Source: Campylobacteraceae bacterium
GTDB taxonomy: Bacteria > Campylobacterota > Campylobacteria > Campylobacterales > Sulfurovaceae
Length of the DNA: 64,000 bases
Assembly (NCBI GenBank): GCA_027080995.1
Contig: JALWNT010000039.1
Coordinates: 1-64,000, forward strand
Reading direction: 5' to 3'
A program made the position numbers and the translations under genes. The notes under the pieces are model-generated. The model saw nothing but the letters and a program-made list of their open reading frames with translations, did no database searches and was not told where the DNA came from. This document shows positions 43,039-52,425 of this stretch, in pieces (within the stretch, counting starts at the first letter, position 1; each line of letters starts with the position of its first letter).

Positions 43039-43108
43039 TGGAGAATATAGGATGATGGAAGATGGAAGATGGAGGATTTTGGATTGCGTTGCGGTGCAAC
43101 GCTCCTTT

Positions 43109-43188
43109 TTTGAATAAAATTGGTTTGCGTCATCCTGAACTTGTTTCAGGATCCAGGGGCAAGCCTGAAATGACGGAGTTTGTTCAGA
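43109..43188. repeat. Dispersed inverted-repeat element, copy D (shortened)
   Basis: About 80 bp: TTTTTTGAATAAAATT..GTCATCCTGAACTTGTTTCAGG ATCC.., then GGGGCAAGCCTGAAATGAC and TTTGTTCAGAG. The inner part of the second arm seen in other copies is missing. It is preceded by low-complexity DNA (GATGGAAGATGGAAGATGGAG, 43050-43070). Confidence 0.65.
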
Positions 43189-43248
43189 GTGCCATTACCT
43201 GTACCACGGCTTCGGGACCAATCGACAAATAACTTTGTAGCGGTGGAG

Positions 43249-43289
43249 GCGGGACTTCAGTCCCGCATTGTGCGGGGTTGAAACCCCGC
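43249..43289. repeat. Paired palindrome (REP/BIME-like)
   Basis: Two perfect hairpins follow each other: GCGGGACT-TC-AGTCCCGC (43249-43266) and GCGGGGTT-GA-AACCCCGC (43272-43289); outer bases (GGAGGCGGG/CCCCGCCTCT) allow both to fold as one larger stem. It occupies the 324-nt gap 43039-43362 together with copy D, with no gene seen there. It is of the type associated with RAYT transposases, though none is in this window. Confidence 0.7.
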
Positions 43290-43362
43290 CTCTAAAAGCT
43301 GATGTGAATTGTGTAACGTGGGATTGCCATCGCACGATTTACCTGAAAAAAAGGAGGAACCG

Positions 43363-47479: not shown

Positions 47480-48022
47480 CTAAAGAGCGGTTTTTTTGAA
47501 GAAGTCTCGTACGTATTCGTAGCCGCTGTAGAGCGTCAGCGCGACGGCGATCCACAGAAGGAGGGTGCCGCCTGGCCACTCCATCAGCAAAAAGCCGATG
47601 GCGAACATTTGGCTGACGGTTTTGACTTTGCCCATCCAGCTGGCGGAGATGTCGATCCCCTGGCTGACGGCGGAGACCCGCAGCCCGGTGATGAAGAGTT
47701 CGCGGGTGAGGATGAGGTAGATCGCCCACGGTGAGGCGCGATCGAGCATCATCAGGCCCAGGAAGCCCGCGAGGGTGAGCATCTTGTCGGCCAGCGGATC
47801 GAGGATTGCTCCCAGTGTCGTCACCTGGTTGAAGGTCCGTGCGATGTAGCCGTCAAAAAAGTCGGTCGCACTGGCCAGGACGAAGAGAAAAGCTGCCCCG
47901 TAGTCGAGCCAACTGTAGTGGATCCCGGCGAAGATGCTCCAGTCACGGTCGACCAGCAGCATATACATCAACGGCGCCATCAGCAGGCGGATGAAAGCGA
48001 GGAGGTTGGGCACGTTATACAT
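47480..48022 (-). CDS. pgsA: CDP-diacylglycerol-glycerol-3-phosphate 3-phosphatidyltransferase PgsA
   Basis: PgsA makes phosphatidylglycerol phosphate, the committed step to phosphatidylglycerol. The 180-residue membrane protein has the complete CDP-alcohol phosphotransferase motif DGYIARTFNQVTTLGAILDPLAD (D-G-x2-A-R-x8-G-x3-D-x3-D; residues near 63-85) and about four to five helices. ATG at 48022 follows AGGAGTGCGA. The ribosome site and start lie in a perfect 17-bp palindrome, which may make translation depend on RNA folding. It is last in the pyrD-M16-dapA-fabL-pgsA run. Confidence 0.94.
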   Translation of the reverse strand: MYNVPNLLAFIRLLMAPLMYMLLVDRDWSIFAGIHYSWLDYGAAFLFVLASATDFFDGYIARTFNQVTTLGAILDPLADKMLTLAGFLGLMMLDRASPWAIYLILTRELFITGLRVSAVSQGIDISASWMGKVKTVSQMFAIGFLLMEWPGGTLLLWIAVALTLYSGYEYVRDFFKKTAL

Positions 48023-48049
48023 TCGCACTCCTGTGCGAATGTATAACGT
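48012..48049 (-). promoter_or_regulatory. Perfect 17-bp hairpin over the pgsA ribosome site and start codon
   Basis: In the pgsA sense strand, ACGTTATACATTCGCAC and GTGCGAATGTATAACGT are perfect 17-base inverted copies separated by AGGA. The AGGA loop is the likely Shine-Dalgarno sequence; the ATG start (48022) lies in the 3' arm. It could sequester the start codon while leaving the ribosome site exposed. It has no U-run, so it is not a terminator. Confidence 0.8.
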
Positions 48050-48050
48050 A

Positions 48051-48082
48051 GATTTTGGATTTTGGATTTTGGATTTTGGATT
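48051..48082. repeat. Heptamer tandem repeat
   Basis: Four and a partial copies of ATTTTGG in the gap between pgsA and the FabL-like gene. Non-coding on both strands. Confidence 0.9.
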
Positions 48083-48128
48083 GAAGGATTATAAATTGAA
48101 GTTTATAGCTTGGAAAAAGCTTCTCAAG

Positions 48129-48160
48129 CCAATATACCAATACACCAATATACCAATACA
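48129..48160. repeat. 16-bp tandem repeat
   Basis: Two exact copies of CCAATATACCAATACA (itself two near-copies of CCAATAYA), 46 nt from the heptamer repeat, in the same pgsA-fabL gap. Confidence 0.9.
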
Positions 48161-48202
48161 CAAAAATCTTCATCCTCAATCCTCCATTTCGCTGATTGAA
48201 GA

Positions 48203-48985
48203 TCAGCGGAACGTCGTTCCTCCGTCGACGACCAGGGTGTGCCCCGTGACCCAGCTTGCGTCGTCGCTGCAGAGGAAGAGGACAGCACCCGCGAGGTCTT
48301 CGGGGGTGCCCATGCGGTTGAGTGCGGAGCGTTTGATCGTTTCGGCTTTGACCTCTTCGTAGTTGGTGAAAGCGCGCAGGGCGTCGGTCTCGATGGGGCC
48401 GCCGCTGACGGCGTTGACCCGGATGTTCCATTCGCCCAGTTCCACGGCGGCGTAGCGGGCCATCGCTTCGACGGCGGCTTTGTTGGTGCCGTGGCCGGCG
48501 TAGTTTTCGATGTAGATGCGGTTGCCGGTGGAGCTGAGCGTCACGATGGCGCCTCCGCCGACCTCCTTCATCCGTTTGGCCGCCTCCTGGCTGCCGGCGA
48601 CGAAGGCCCCCACGGTGGCCATATAGATGTTGGCTAGGCCCTTTTTGGGGCGCAGCTTCATGAACTTTCCGTAGCCGCCGACGACGGGGCGGCCGTAGAT
48701 CATCGCGTTGGAGACGAAGAAATCGACCCGGTCGAAATCCTCGTCGATGGCCTGGAAGAGGGGCTTGAACTGGTCGGTGTCGAGAATATCCAGAGGATAG
48801 CAGCGGGCTTTGACGCCGTAACTCTTTTCGAGCTCTTCGGCGAAGCTTTCGGCCGCCTCTTTGTTGGAGTTGTAGGTCAGCGCGACGTTGACGCCGTTTT
48901 GGGCGAATTTCTCGGCGGTCGCTCTGCCGATCCCTTTGGTCGCCCCGGTGATGACCAGGGTTTTGCCTTTCATCGATTCGTACAT
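48203..48985 (-). CDS. FabL-like enoyl-ACP reductase (SDR)
   Basis: A 260-residue SDR resembling the NADPH-dependent enoyl-ACP reductase FabL: cofactor motif TGATKGIGRATAEKF, then VSNAMIYGRPVVGG, the catalytic pair in IENYAGHGTNKAAVEAMARY spaced as Y-x6-K (as in enoyl-ACP reductases, rather than Y-x3-K), VNAVSGGPIETDALRAF and the C-terminal VVDGGTTFR. It would reduce the enoyl-ACP double bond in fatty-acid elongation; a hydroxysteroid-dehydrogenase-like SDR is the usual database label for the orthologue at this position. Its ATG overlaps the dapA stop by one base. Confidence 0.8.
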   Translation of the reverse strand: MYESMKGKTLVITGATKGIGRATAEKFAQNGVNVALTYNSNKEAAESFAEELEKSYGVKARCYPLDILDTDQFKPLFQAIDEDFDRVDFFVSNAMIYGRPVVGGYGKFMKLRPKKGLANIYMATVGAFVAGSQEAAKRMKEVGGGAIVTLSSTGNRIYIENYAGHGTNKAAVEAMARYAAVELGEWNIRVNAVSGGPIETDALRAFTNYEEVKAETIKRSALNRMGTPEDLAGAVLFLCSDDASWVTGHTLVVDGGTTFR

Positions 48986-49881
48986 TATTTCACTCCCGGA
49001 ATGCTGTAGTTTTTCAGTGCCGCTTCGATTTTTTTCATATTCTCAGCCGAAGGGGCGACGAGCGGCAGGCGGTACTCCAGGGTCGGCAGCAGGCCCGCGA
49101 GGTACATCGCGGCTTTGACCGGGATAGGGTTGGATTCGACGAACATCGCCTTGTTGATCGGGTAGAGGGAGTCGTTGATCGCCTTGGAGGCGGCCAGGTC
49201 TCCCTCCAGAGCGGTGTGGACCAGCCGGGACTTGAGGTCGGGCAGGAGATTGGCGGTCACGGAGATGATCCCCTTGGCGCCGTTGGCCAGCAGGGGATAG
49301 TCGATGGCGTCGTCGCCGCTGACGAGGCAGAGCTCAGGGCGGGCGGCCAGCAGGTCCACGGCCCGCTCCATCGAGCCGGTCGCCTCTTTGATGGCGTAGA
49401 TGTTGGGGACTTCGTCGAAGAGGCGGAAGACGGTGGCGGGCAGAAGATCGACGGAGGTACGGCCCGGGACGTTGTAGAGCATCACGGGGATCTCCACCGC
49501 TTCGGCGAGGGCTTTGTAGTGGCGGTAGAGCCCCTCCTGGGAAGGTTTGTTGTAGTAGGGGGTGACGGAGAGCAGGGCGTCGGCGCCGCACTCCTGGGCG
49601 TGGCGGGCGATGTCGATCGCTTCGTGGGTGGCGTTGGAGCCCGCGCCGGCGAGGACTTTGACGCCGGTACCGCGGCAGACTTCGACGGCGATTTCGATGC
49701 AGCGCTTGTGCTCGTCGTGGCTCAGCGTGGCGCTCTCACCGGTGGTGCCGACGGGGACGACGGCGTCCATTCCGTGGGTGATCTGGCGTCGGATCAGCTC
49801 GGCGAAAGTCGCTTCGTCCAGCCGCCCGTCTCGAAAGGGCGTGATCAGGGCGGTCATCGCCCCGCATATCGTTTGGCTCAT
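48985..49881 (-). CDS. dapA: 4-hydroxy-tetrahydrodipicolinate synthase DapA
   Basis: DapA condenses pyruvate with aspartate semialdehyde in lysine and diaminopimelate synthesis. The 298-residue product has [14 protein letters not shown], the tyrosine in [13 protein letters not shown] near 133 and the Schiff-base lysine in [10 protein letters not shown] near 161. It overlaps the M16 protease gene by ATGA and the FabL-like gene by one base. This order is the same as in Helicobacter pylori as I recall it. Confidence 0.96.
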
Positions 49882-51158
49882 TGCTCGTTGCTCCTGAGGA
49901 TGATGGTGGTCGACCGGGTGTTGTCGAAATACTTTTTCGCCACCTTTTTGACCATTTCGGGGGTAATTTTATCCAAATCTTCCTCATACTCCAGCAGAGG
50001 CTTCAGGTCGCCCCGGGCGAGGTAGGAGCCAAAAAGCGTCGCTGTGGAGGAGGAGCTCTCCAGCTCGTGGATGAAATCGACCTTGGTATTGAGGCGGATC
50101 TTTTTGAGCTCCTCCTCGCTGACCCCTTCGCTCTTTATCCGCTCGATCTCGGCCAGGATCGCCTTTTCGAGATCTTCGGCCTTGACGCCGGGGTTGGCTA
50201 CGGCGAGGAAGAGGAAGATCCCCGGATCCTTGAGCTCCATATTGTAGCCGTAGACCTGGGTGGCGAGGCCGCGTTTTTGGACCAGTTGGCTGTAGAGGCG
50301 CCCGCTCTTGCCGCTGCTGAGGATTTCGGAGATCATCGAGAGGACGACTTGATCCTTGTCGCGGAAGTCGGGGATGGAGTAGGCGATGGCGACGGTTTCG
50401 GCGGTATTGTTCTCCTTGTGCAGGATGACCCGCTTGGCTCCGTCGGAGGGGGGCTCGTAGGGTTCGTTGGTGGTGATGAGCGAGCAGGGGCAGTCGGCCT
50501 TGGGGGCCTGGACTTTTCCGAAGGTCTCCTCGGCGGTTTTGAACACCTCCTCGGGCTTGACGTCGCCGGCGACGATGAGGATGGCGTTGTCGGGGCGGTA
50601 GAAGCGGCGGTGAAACTCCCGGATATCCTCGATGTTCCAGTGCTGGATGTCGTGCATGAAACCGATGGGGGTCCAATGGTAGCTGTGCTCGACGTAGTGG
50701 GTGTTGAAGAGGCGGAAGTAGAGGTAGCCGATGGGGTTGTTGTCGGTGCGCCAGCGCCGCTCCTCGGCGACGACTTTGCGCTCTTTTTGGAACTCTTCGT
50801 CACTGAGATTGAGGTTGGCCATCAGCTCGGCGTAGAGCTGCATCGCCATTTTCATATTGGGGGTGGAGGATTTGATGAAGTAGTGGGTGTAGTCGAAGCC
50901 CGTGGAGGCGTTGTTGACCCCGCCGTGGGATTTGACGATCTTGTCGAACTCCCCCTCTTTGAGATGCTTGGTGGATTTGAAGTTCATATGCTCCAGCATA
51001 TGGGCGATTCCGGTTTTGCCGAGGATCTCGTCCCGGCTGCCGACTTTGTAGAAGATGTCGGTGGTGATGACTCCGGTGCCGTTCTCCAGCGGGATCGCGT
51101 AGACCTCCAGCCCGTTGGCCAGGGTCTTGTGAAAGTATTTGGGTAGAGAGTTTGCCAT
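49878..51158 (-). CDS. M16 family zinc peptidase
   Basis: A 426-residue M16 (pitrilysin/processing peptidase-like) protein. The inverted zinc motif [14 protein letters not shown] (H-x2-E-H) near residue 52 and the distal Glu in [11 protein letters not shown] are present; the inactive-type C-terminal domain with [17 protein letters not shown] follows. ATG at 51158 follows CAGGAG; the frame stays open 55 codons upstream through low-complexity DNA (51180-51230), which I regard as non-coding. It is coupled to dapA. Confidence 0.9.
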
Positions 51159-51348
51159 AAGTGCTCCTGAGAGCAGCAGCGCGAGCGCTGCCGCAGTGGG
51201 TAGTGGATAGTGGGTAGTGAGTAGATTTTTGGTGAATTTTTTACAAAATTCTTTCAATTTTATAAACATTTTCCGACTTTTGATGGTGTAATTAAGAAAC
51301 AAAAACTTCGCAAGGCGAAGCATACCGAAATTCCTAACTCCTCACTCT

Positions 51349-52425
51349 CTATTCCTCACTCTTTTTCCAGTCCGCTCCCACCGCTTCGGAGATGTTTTCG
51401 AAGCCGTCGCTGCGCAGCAGGCGGACGAGACCCCGGTTGATGCGCTCGATGAGGGCGGGGCCTTCGTAAATCAACAGGCTGTAGACCTGTACCAGGCTGG
51501 CGCCCATGCGGATGCGGCGGTAGGCCTCTTCGGCGCTGTCGATGCCGCCCACGGAGATGAGCAGGGTCTTGTCGTGAAACTCCCGGCCGATGGCGGCGAA
51601 GAGTTCGCGGGACTTTTCGGTGAGCAAAGCGCCGCTGATGCCGCCGAATTTCCGGGCGTGGGGAGTCAGGGAGTAGTCGACGGTGGTGTTGGTGGCGATG
51701 ATCCCCGCCGCTCCGGCTTCCACGGCGACGCGGCAGAGTTCCAGGGCCTGTTCGGCGCTCATATCGGGAGCGATCTTCAGAAAGATCGGCTTCTGGGTGA
51801 TGGAGCGTCCGATACGGAAGACTTCGCGGATGAACGTTTCGTTTTGCAGGTCGCGCAATCCCGGGGTGTTGGGGGAGGAGATGTTGATGACGATGTAGGT
51901 GCCGTAATTTCGGAAGGCCCTGAAGAGGGTTTCGTAGTCGCTCAGGGCTTCTTTCTCGGGCGTGGTCTTGTTCTTTCCGATGTTGATGCCGATGGGATAG
52001 TCGAAAAAGCGAAGCCGTTTGAGGCGTTTGGCCATATGCCAGGCCCCTTTGTTGTTGAAGCCCATGGCGTTTTGGATGGAGCGGTCCTCCACCAGGCGGA
52101 AGAGCCTGGGCTTGGGGTTGCCGGGTTGGGGGCGGGGGGTGACGGTGCCGATCTCGGTAAAGCCGAAGCCCAAAGCGGGGGTGGCGCGGACGTAGTCGCC
52201 GTTTTTGTCGAAACCGGCAGCCAGACCCACCGGATTGCGAAAGAGGCGCCCGAAGAGGGTCTGATGCAAAGCGGGATGGTCGACGAAATAGCGCTCGATC
52301 ATCGCGTTCCAGGCCGGGGGGCAGCAGGGCAGAGCCCGCAGGCCGAAGCCGGCCAGGGTATGGGCGGTCTCGGGATCGAGACGGAAGAGCATGGATTTGA
52401 GAGTGTCGTAGCTGAAAAAGGACAT
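51349..52425 (-). CDS. pyrD: Dihydroorotate dehydrogenase (quinone), class 2
   Basis: Membrane-associated flavoenzyme (358 aa) that oxidises dihydroorotate to orotate with quinone as acceptor in pyrimidine synthesis. It has the class-2 N-terminal extension (LFRLDPETAHTLAGFGLRAL), NPVGLAAGFDKNGDYV, INISSPNTPGLRDLQ with the catalytic serine, and LISVGGIDSAEEAYRRI, LVQVYSLLIYEGP. ATG follows AAAAGG. It heads the conserved pyrD-M16-dapA-fabL-pgsA run; the 190-nt gap to the M16 gene holds low-complexity repeats (GTGGGTAGTGGATAGTGGG..). Confidence 0.96.
   Translation of the reverse strand: MSFFSYDTLKSMLFRLDPETAHTLAGFGLRALPCCPPAWNAMIERYFVDHPALHQTLFGRLFRNPVGLAAGFDKNGDYVRATPALGFGFTEIGTVTPRPQPGNPKPRLFRLVEDRSIQNAMGFNNKGAWHMAKRLKRLRFFDYPIGINIGKNKTTPEKEALSDYETLFRAFRNYGTYIVINISSPNTPGLRDLQNETFIREVFRIGRSITQKPIFLKIAPDMSAEQALELCRVAVEAGAAGIIATNTTVDYSLTPHARKFGGISGALLTEKSRELFAAIGREFHDKTLLISVGGIDSAEEAYRRIRMGASLVQVYSLLIYEGPALIERINRGLVRLLRSDGFENISEAVGADWKKSEE

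Follow-up and report, generated by a model that had tools for sequence, protein, structure and literature searches.

The 64,000-nt stretch of DNA analysed here (the window) holds a perfect inverted repeat at the start of pgsA, which raises the question of whether this structure serves the mRNA or was left behind by DNA copying. The repeat spans positions 48012-48049, with 17 of 17 positions complementary between two arms (48012-48028 and 48033-48049) around a 4-nt spacer. On the minus strand the order is heptamer array, ACGTTATACATTCGCAC, AGGA, GTGCGAATGTATAACGT and the remainder of pgsA. The gene-side arm (48012-48028, minus strand) comprises the end of the pgsA 5' leader and the first codons (GTGCGA ATG TAT AAC GT), and its codons N(V/I)PN are common to relatives in the leader comparison. 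The copy arm (48033-48049, minus strand) is its exact reverse complement and sits between pgsA and the array. The ATG (48022-48020) lies inside the stem, and a GTG at 48028-48026 is in frame with pgsA. Four bases of the likely Shine-Dalgarno (SD) sequence AGGAG make up the loop (48029-48032, minus strand), and its fifth and last base is in the stem. The exact palindrome, its AGGA loop and the placement of SD and AUG given in the preliminary description are thus borne out, and so is its view that the repeat is too long for chance. No other perfect inverted repeat in the window has arms longer than 11, arms above 11 did not arise in any of 10 re-samplings of the window under a first-order Markov model, and the chance expectation, roughly calculated as 64000 positions x 11 loop sizes x 4^-17, is about 4e-5.

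Both genes flanking the palindrome were identified with NCBIfam profiles. pgsA (47480-48022, minus strand) encodes CDP-diacylglycerol--glycerol-3-phosphate 3-phosphatidyltransferase and matches the equivalog TIGR00560 with 149.7 bits (cut-off 109.1) when the frame is started at 48019, and the upstream gene (48203-48985, minus strand) encodes an enoyl-ACP reductase-like SDR (NF006267, 468.9 bits, cut-off 369). The gap between them is a cassette of repeats. A heptamer array of 4.6 copies of GATTTTG (48051-48082, plus strand; AATCCAA in mRNA sense) adjoins the copy arm, and a second array with period 8/16 (TGTATTGG/TATATTGG on the minus strand) occupies 48129-48161. A further hairpin lies on the SDR stop codon (48185-48213, minus strand); it is imperfect in the window, with a 7-bp core CGCTGAT/ATCAGCG, and perfect in the relatives L002, L003, and L006. 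Rfam gave no match over the gathering score in 47900-48300, the sole match being a miRNA model with E 0.37 and 18.1 bits against a required 195. A second cassette is present in the window at 51195-51224 and 51332-51361, between the ORFs 51349-52425 and 49878-51323; because its array runs into the N-terminal end of ORF 49878-51323, the start of that ORF is doubtful.

The pgsA leader was compared among 60 relatives, of which 51 had pgsA and 30 had their leaders fetched and compared. Seven of the 30 leaders carry a hairpin around the pgsA start, all in the genus Nitratifractor, and by eye it is absent in the other 23. Among 13 genomes of the genus, pgsA was found in 10, with a second copy in G006, and all 8 copies from the 7 heptamer-bearing genomes have a near-perfect hairpin at the pgsA start; it is absent in the remaining three with pgsA (G003, G004, and G007). 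The two G006 copies, on contigs C31 and C173, are 99% and 95% like the query, and as this genome has 7% contamination they perhaps stem from two organisms.

While the shape of the palindrome is kept in all cassette-bearing copies, its letters are not, as the 8 copies contain at least five unlike hairpin sequences: L001, L005, and L051 align together, L003 aligns with L004, and L002, L006, and L007 each stand alone. Mismatches are few, with one A.G in L003 and one G.U in L002. The second hairpin on the SDR stop is likewise found at all 8 copies, in imperfect form in L001, L004, L005, and L051. Gaps with the hairpin are built alike, from the SDR-stop hairpin through a G-rich repeat stretch, a core and a C-rich array to the pgsA-start hairpin, and the seven that were measured are 126-183 nt long, compared with 27 nt in G007 and 47 nt in G003. 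The reductase genes of L051 and L003 are 97.4% identical, yet their cassettes are unlike, whereas L001, L005, and L051 have like cassettes though their reductase genes are only 87-89% identical, which indicates that cassettes turn over or are exchanged.

These comparisons also bear on an assembly or library artefact in the form of a fold-back chimera. Fold-back palindromes are a known type of artefact. By the preliminary description, its reading would fall if relatives lacked the palindrome and reads showed an assembly artefact at this point; the same architecture was found at pgsA in other genomes, including G011, a single contig of 2,101,285 bp. Independent assemblies, among them the complete chromosome of an isolate, have palindromes at the same places and with compensating changes in sequence, so that an artefactual origin is extremely improbable.

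In RNA thermometers and other structured ribosome sites the SD and AUG lie in a stem-loop, as they do at pgsA, and the preliminary description had proposed a thermometer-like or protein-controlled switch of translation. Folding of the window's leader predicts a stable stem (-27.3 kcal/mol at 37 C; z = -5.8; 0/200 shuffles as stable), with predicted energies across seven leaders ranging from -16.5 to -35.8 kcal/mol. In all seven, the stem is still the minimum free energy structure at 60 C in the model. A stem of such stability should hinder translation initiation, and it probably forms in the mRNA and lowers initiation of pgsA, as judged from the predicted folds; pgsA is nonetheless retained in spite of the predicted stem. 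The pgsA stem thus differs from RNA thermometers in a stability that keeps it from melting in the model and in not being gene-specific. For a protein-controlled switch, the hairpin sequence is not conserved and offers no fixed protein site, and hairpins of the same type occur on starts and stops of unrelated genes with differing sequence and SD/AUG placement. A stem-loop over the ribosome site, kept in shape among close relatives, is real, and neither a thermometer nor a protein-controlled switch as its specific function is supported; despite the SD and AUG in or beside the stem, a switch specific to pgsA seems highly unlikely.

The wider occurrence of such hairpins was assessed by a gene-edge scan of stretches of five genomes (1673 starts and 1678 stops), in which an edge counted as array-bearing if a heptamer run lay within 75 nt and in which the flank of another gene was swapped in as a control. 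Gene starts were taken from a home-made caller, and score thresholds were set after G011 had been inspected. Hairpins were found at 17 of 78 array-bearing starts versus 3 of 1595 starts without an array, and at 5 of 99 array-bearing stops versus 19 of 1579 stops without one. Pooled, this is 22/177 versus 22/3174 edges (Fisher p 1.7e-17), a figure in which orthologous hairpins are counted more than once because the genomes are related. The array effect is large at starts and moderate at stops. Hairpins with a score of at least 9.5 numbered 20 among the 1673 starts and 24 among the 1678 stops, against swapped-flank expectations at a score of at least 10 of about 2.6 and 1.6, respectively. At that latter threshold, observed and expected numbers were 8 and 1.0 for starts in G001, 10 and 0.6 for starts in G011, 11 and 0.8 for stops in G011, and 0 and 0.2 for starts in G008; G007, a genome without arrays, had 2 stop hairpins, which are A+T-rich, where 0.2 were expected.

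Position strengthens this association. A period-7 run directly adjoins 16 of the 20 start hairpins, with no intervening base, and lies within 33 nt of 19 of them. At stops, 8 of 24 hairpins are followed immediately by the array, and 13 of 24 have no recognised run; by eye, several of the latter, such as that on the SDR stop, continue into degenerate seven-base units. Among 45 intergenic arrays of G011, hairpins with a score of at least 9 were seen seven times at the outer side and never at the inner side (0/45), compared with 4/600 random places and 2/600 random intergenic places. The palindrome at pgsA is thus one of a genus-level set of gene-edge palindromes, mostly located where coding sequence borders a heptamer array. 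As hairpins occur at stops as well as starts, translation initiation is not their common factor. Stop-side hairpins were also considered as intrinsic terminators and rejected, as they have no U run and, by eye, TTTT occurs in the 8-nt flanks only within heptamer units (attttgga, gattttgg).

Among tandem runs, period 7 prevails in G011. In 800 kb of this genome there are 70 runs with at least 12 matches at period 7, the next most frequent being 11 at period 14, with at most 11 at any other period from 4 to 20. Period-7 runs number 9 in 239 kb of G000, 56 in 407 kb of G001, 11 in 190 kb of G008, 7 in 40 kb of G009, and 83 in 1 Mb of G011; they are few in G007 (1 in 98 kb) and none were seen in 50 kb of G003. 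Across the five genomes, 139 of 162 arrays are intergenic, and their units are many (AATGAGG, AGGAGTG, AAGATGG, ATTTTGG, and others). Arrays are oriented, in that the gene 5' of the G-rich strand is the nearer one in 119 of 132 (median 24 vs 130.5 nt), and neighbouring pairs are convergent (n = 22) or run in the same direction (n = 19) but are never divergent.

This orientation, together with hairpins at both ends of the SDR-pgsA gap in all 8 copies (imperfect on the SDR side in the four named above) and the short gap in genomes without the cassette, could be taken to mean that the whole cassette arises in one event. A break or stalled fork between genes would be healed by fold-back of both 3' ends and extension with G-rich heptamers, after which the ends would be joined; we find this quite doubtful. 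The product, equally doubtful in our judgment, would read hairpin-array-core-array-hairpin. Most arrays lack a hairpin, no intermediate was seen, and Xanthomonas arrays show similar placement and pairing, with gene-edge hairpins unmentioned in the accessible part of that account (PMC4692102).

The window holds two further repeats. At 43050-43110 a GGAAGAT array leads into a GCGTTGC/GCAACGC hairpin with a T run behind it, a motif which recurs at the inner end of many G011 arrays, and 43240-43300 contains a palindromic repeat of the type GCGGGACTTCAGTCCCGC / GCGGGGTTGAAACCCCGC, with similar letters in L110 and L118.

Gene-edge hairpins were found on the unrelated genes tsaD, trpF, mqnC, nadB, purE, and the enoyl-ACP reductase. 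Five other orthologous sites were picked because G011 has a hairpin there, and calls were made by eye, with a subset of arms confirmed by script. At the tsaD start, 8 of 12 fetched loci have the hairpin (L072-L078 and L080); it is absent in L079, L081, and L083, and L082 stops short of the start. The trpF start shows 0-2 mismatches in L084, L085, and L087-L091 (short in L090), is irregular in L086 and lacks the hairpin in L092-L094. The hairpin at mqnC is clear only in L108. At nadB, L095 and L104 have a long hairpin, L096, L097, L099, and L100 have short SD hairpins, and L098 and L101-L103 have none. The purE stop hairpin is perfect in L121, L122, L124, L127, and L129, has three mismatches in L128 and is absent in L123, L125, L126, and L130, while L131 falls short. 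Within nadB, at about codons 100-125, an in-frame heptamer array stands at the same place in L095, L096, L097, L099, and L100 with differing units, and that of G011 also includes a GGTATCAC/GTGATACC hairpin.

Covariation in a stem usually counts as the best evidence that an RNA is functional. The pairing was examined for a signature of RNA or of DNA. Across 8 ortholog sites, 378 of 395 cells are Watson-Crick, and the 109 pairs contain 12 extra Watson-Crick types from two-sided changes next to 14 non-Watson-Crick states. Some two-sided types change amino acids, including Tyr/Val at codon 2 of pgsA and three in a gene reading ..DWI in G001 and G011. In tsaD, a 3-nt codon indel between G011 and L073 (gene arm CTCCTGTTGAGTATCG vs CTCCTGAGTATCG) is mirrored in the copy arm. 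Templated copying accounts for both the two-sided changes and the mirrored indel in a single step. The arms are thus Watson-Crick reverse-complement copies that are closer than flanking divergence allows, with multi-base and indel changes matched on both arms, as expected of template switching.

A pair broken by a transition becomes G.U or A.C equally, and only RNA pairing distinguishes the two, so that selection on RNA would favour G.U. Among 26 array-side hairpins of the genome sample, 16 are perfect, and the mismatches in 400 pairs are G.T (n = 5), A.C (n = 4), and others (n = 12). In the ortholog set, G.U and A.C count 6 and 4 by state and 11 and 5 by cell, where cells partly reflect one ancestral change; the G.U in the pgsA hairpin of L002 comes on top of these. 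Any lean toward G.U over A.C is at most weak, and the mismatch counts are small. Allowing G.U in the scan at a score of at least 12 gave 17 start hairpins versus 14 without it, and 9 versus 2 at stops, where the swapped-flank expectation was 4.1.

The slight G.U lean in orthologs makes some RNA-level selection possible, and it is one of several observations that would fit selected mRNA structures capping the ends of cistrons, with pgsA damped and not switched; overall we hold this to be possible but rather unlikely. At a start, SD and AUG would be held in the stem, preceded by an unstructured heptamer tract rich in C and U, perhaps an S1-type standby site, to which we give similarly modest credence, and the heptamers of the 5' leader are indeed unpaired in the predicted fold. 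The unfolding of structured mRNAs by ribosomal protein S1 in E. coli is the topic of PMC3858243. At a stop, the stem would guard the 3' end, which we likewise think unlikely though conceivable. The stem is kept in all 8 cassette-bearing pgsA copies despite unlike sequences (L051 by eye), and among the 6 genomes having a purE copy arm, that arm is fully paired in 5, while the sequence beyond it is replaced. Against capping, G.U is not in excess in the genome sample, permitting it adds few start hairpins, most genes have no hairpin and the mirrored codon indel is easier to obtain by templating. The SD/AUG geometry is also variable: in 19 start hairpins with a recognised SD, it lies in the copy arm in 12 and in the loop in 7. 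Such varied stem positions, and the presence of hairpins on stops as well as starts, are a poor fit to a translation switch.

The alternative already raised in the preliminary description, an inverted duplication of the first codons of pgsA, is well supported and appears to be a recurrent process. By its sequence, the pgsA palindrome duplicates the first part of the gene in inverted orientation, the copy standing between gene and heptamer array. We consider it moderately probable that gene-edge palindromes in general arise by fold-back template switching at the edges of heptamer arrays, with the mRNA hairpin as a by-product, a mechanism that we infer from its end products. On passing from the gene into the array, a polymerase would stall, and the nascent 3' end would fold back and copy itself for about 10-20 nt before returning to the array, where repeats allow easy re-pairing. 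As a result, the gene edge and the array would come to be separated precisely by a reverse-complement copy of that edge. Further switching of this sort at later times (quasipalindrome correction) could restore perfect pairing, the non-coding arm being rewritten to match the coding arm, which protein-level selection would retain. The need for a usable ribosome site may decide which fold-back events survive, the copy arm itself often supplying the SD as the complement of CTCC-type early codons; the SD in the copy arm in 12 of 19 hairpins suggests that survival depends on leaving such a site. The resulting mRNA hairpin may damp translation. Some observations speak against template switching: selection would equally explain why the purE copy arm is kept while the sequence beyond is replaced, and the excess of hairpins at array-bearing starts over array-bearing stops requires of a blind DNA process either selection or more decayed arrays at stops.

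Fold-back template switching resembles the quasipalindrome-associated template-switch mutation of E. coli (PMC7202029) and the template switching that creates and maintains hairpins (PMC8794818), with which it shares the reverse-complement copying of a neighbouring stretch, perfect stems and several compensations at once. Unlike the systems covered in the accessible text of these sources, the present one is genus-wide, situated at protein-gene edges including start and stop codons, and tied to heptamer arrays. These arrays are like the intergenic period-7 arrays of Xanthomonas and Nostoc, those of Xanthomonas also sharing convergent pairing and a G-rich strand that points away from the closest gene (PMC4692102), and like the TAACTGA heptamers of Beggiatoaceae, which have period 7 and lie close to start codons (PMC4679880). 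They differ from both accounts, as far as the accessible text goes, in having inverted gene-edge copies and many units. Mitochondrial coding palindromes of Nematomorpha are also perfect inverted repeats involving coding sequence, but there both arms are protein-coding within genes (PMC6649704), whereas here one arm is mostly coding and the other is not. A coupling of gene-edge palindromes to heptamer arrays in Nitratifractor was not found described in a non-exhaustive literature search.

The proposed mechanism, template switching, is of a known type, and the setting and scale are new. In a naturally occurring set of stems, at both ends of protein genes in a single genus, covariation lacks a clear G.U excess, which points to DNA copying. 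Gene-edge palindromes give an opportunity to quantify evolutionary template switching, point to one way in which SD sites may originate and provide a clue to the behaviour of seven-base arrays. A stronger version, which we put forward as speculative and think unlikely, is that a lineage-specific process in Nitratifractor writes inverted gene-edge copies and oriented heptamer arrays as one unit. The complement of a gene's earliest codons would then become the ribosome binding site, the non-coding copy would evolve in concert with the coding arm, and translation starts would both originate in DNA fold-back copying and be rewritten by it.

In a wider search, arrays of the same heptamer, GGATTTT, were found in at least 117 stretches, and the 80 listed records came from Cyanobacteria, Acidobacteria, Chloroflexi, and others, 76 of them with usable arrays. 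Hairpins with a score of at least 9 among these listed records were present at the outer side of 1 of 139 arrays, the inner side of 3 of 139 and 10 of 960 random places, a count that retained the Campylobacteraceae record L253 and the Nitratifractor record L266. In 116 of the at least 117 stretches, leaving out only L266, hairpins were found at 2/81 array-bearing starts and 3/97 array-bearing stops, compared with 6/643 starts and 3/630 stops without an array; of the five array-bearing ones, three are array-with-array, one is the purE stop of L253 (Nitratifractor type), and one is weak. Arrays alone are thus insufficient, a generic property of heptamer arrays is rejected as sufficient cause, and the hairpin feature is lineage-bound.

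Loss of the hairpin nuclease SbcCD was considered as a cause. No hairpin-bearing genome has SbcD over the cut-off, whereas G007 and G004 do, but it is also missing from the hairpin-free G003 and reaches the cut-off in only 12 of 60 relatives. As its absence is this common, the loss is rejected as the cause; it may permit hairpins without explaining them. An origin as REP/BIME elements with RAYT was rejected as well, since PF01797 (Y1 transposase), present in 7 of 13 genomes, has no match in G000, G002, G005, G006, G009, and G004. While G000 has none, G011 contains seven equal-scoring copies of a Y1 transposase with a 143-aa frame.
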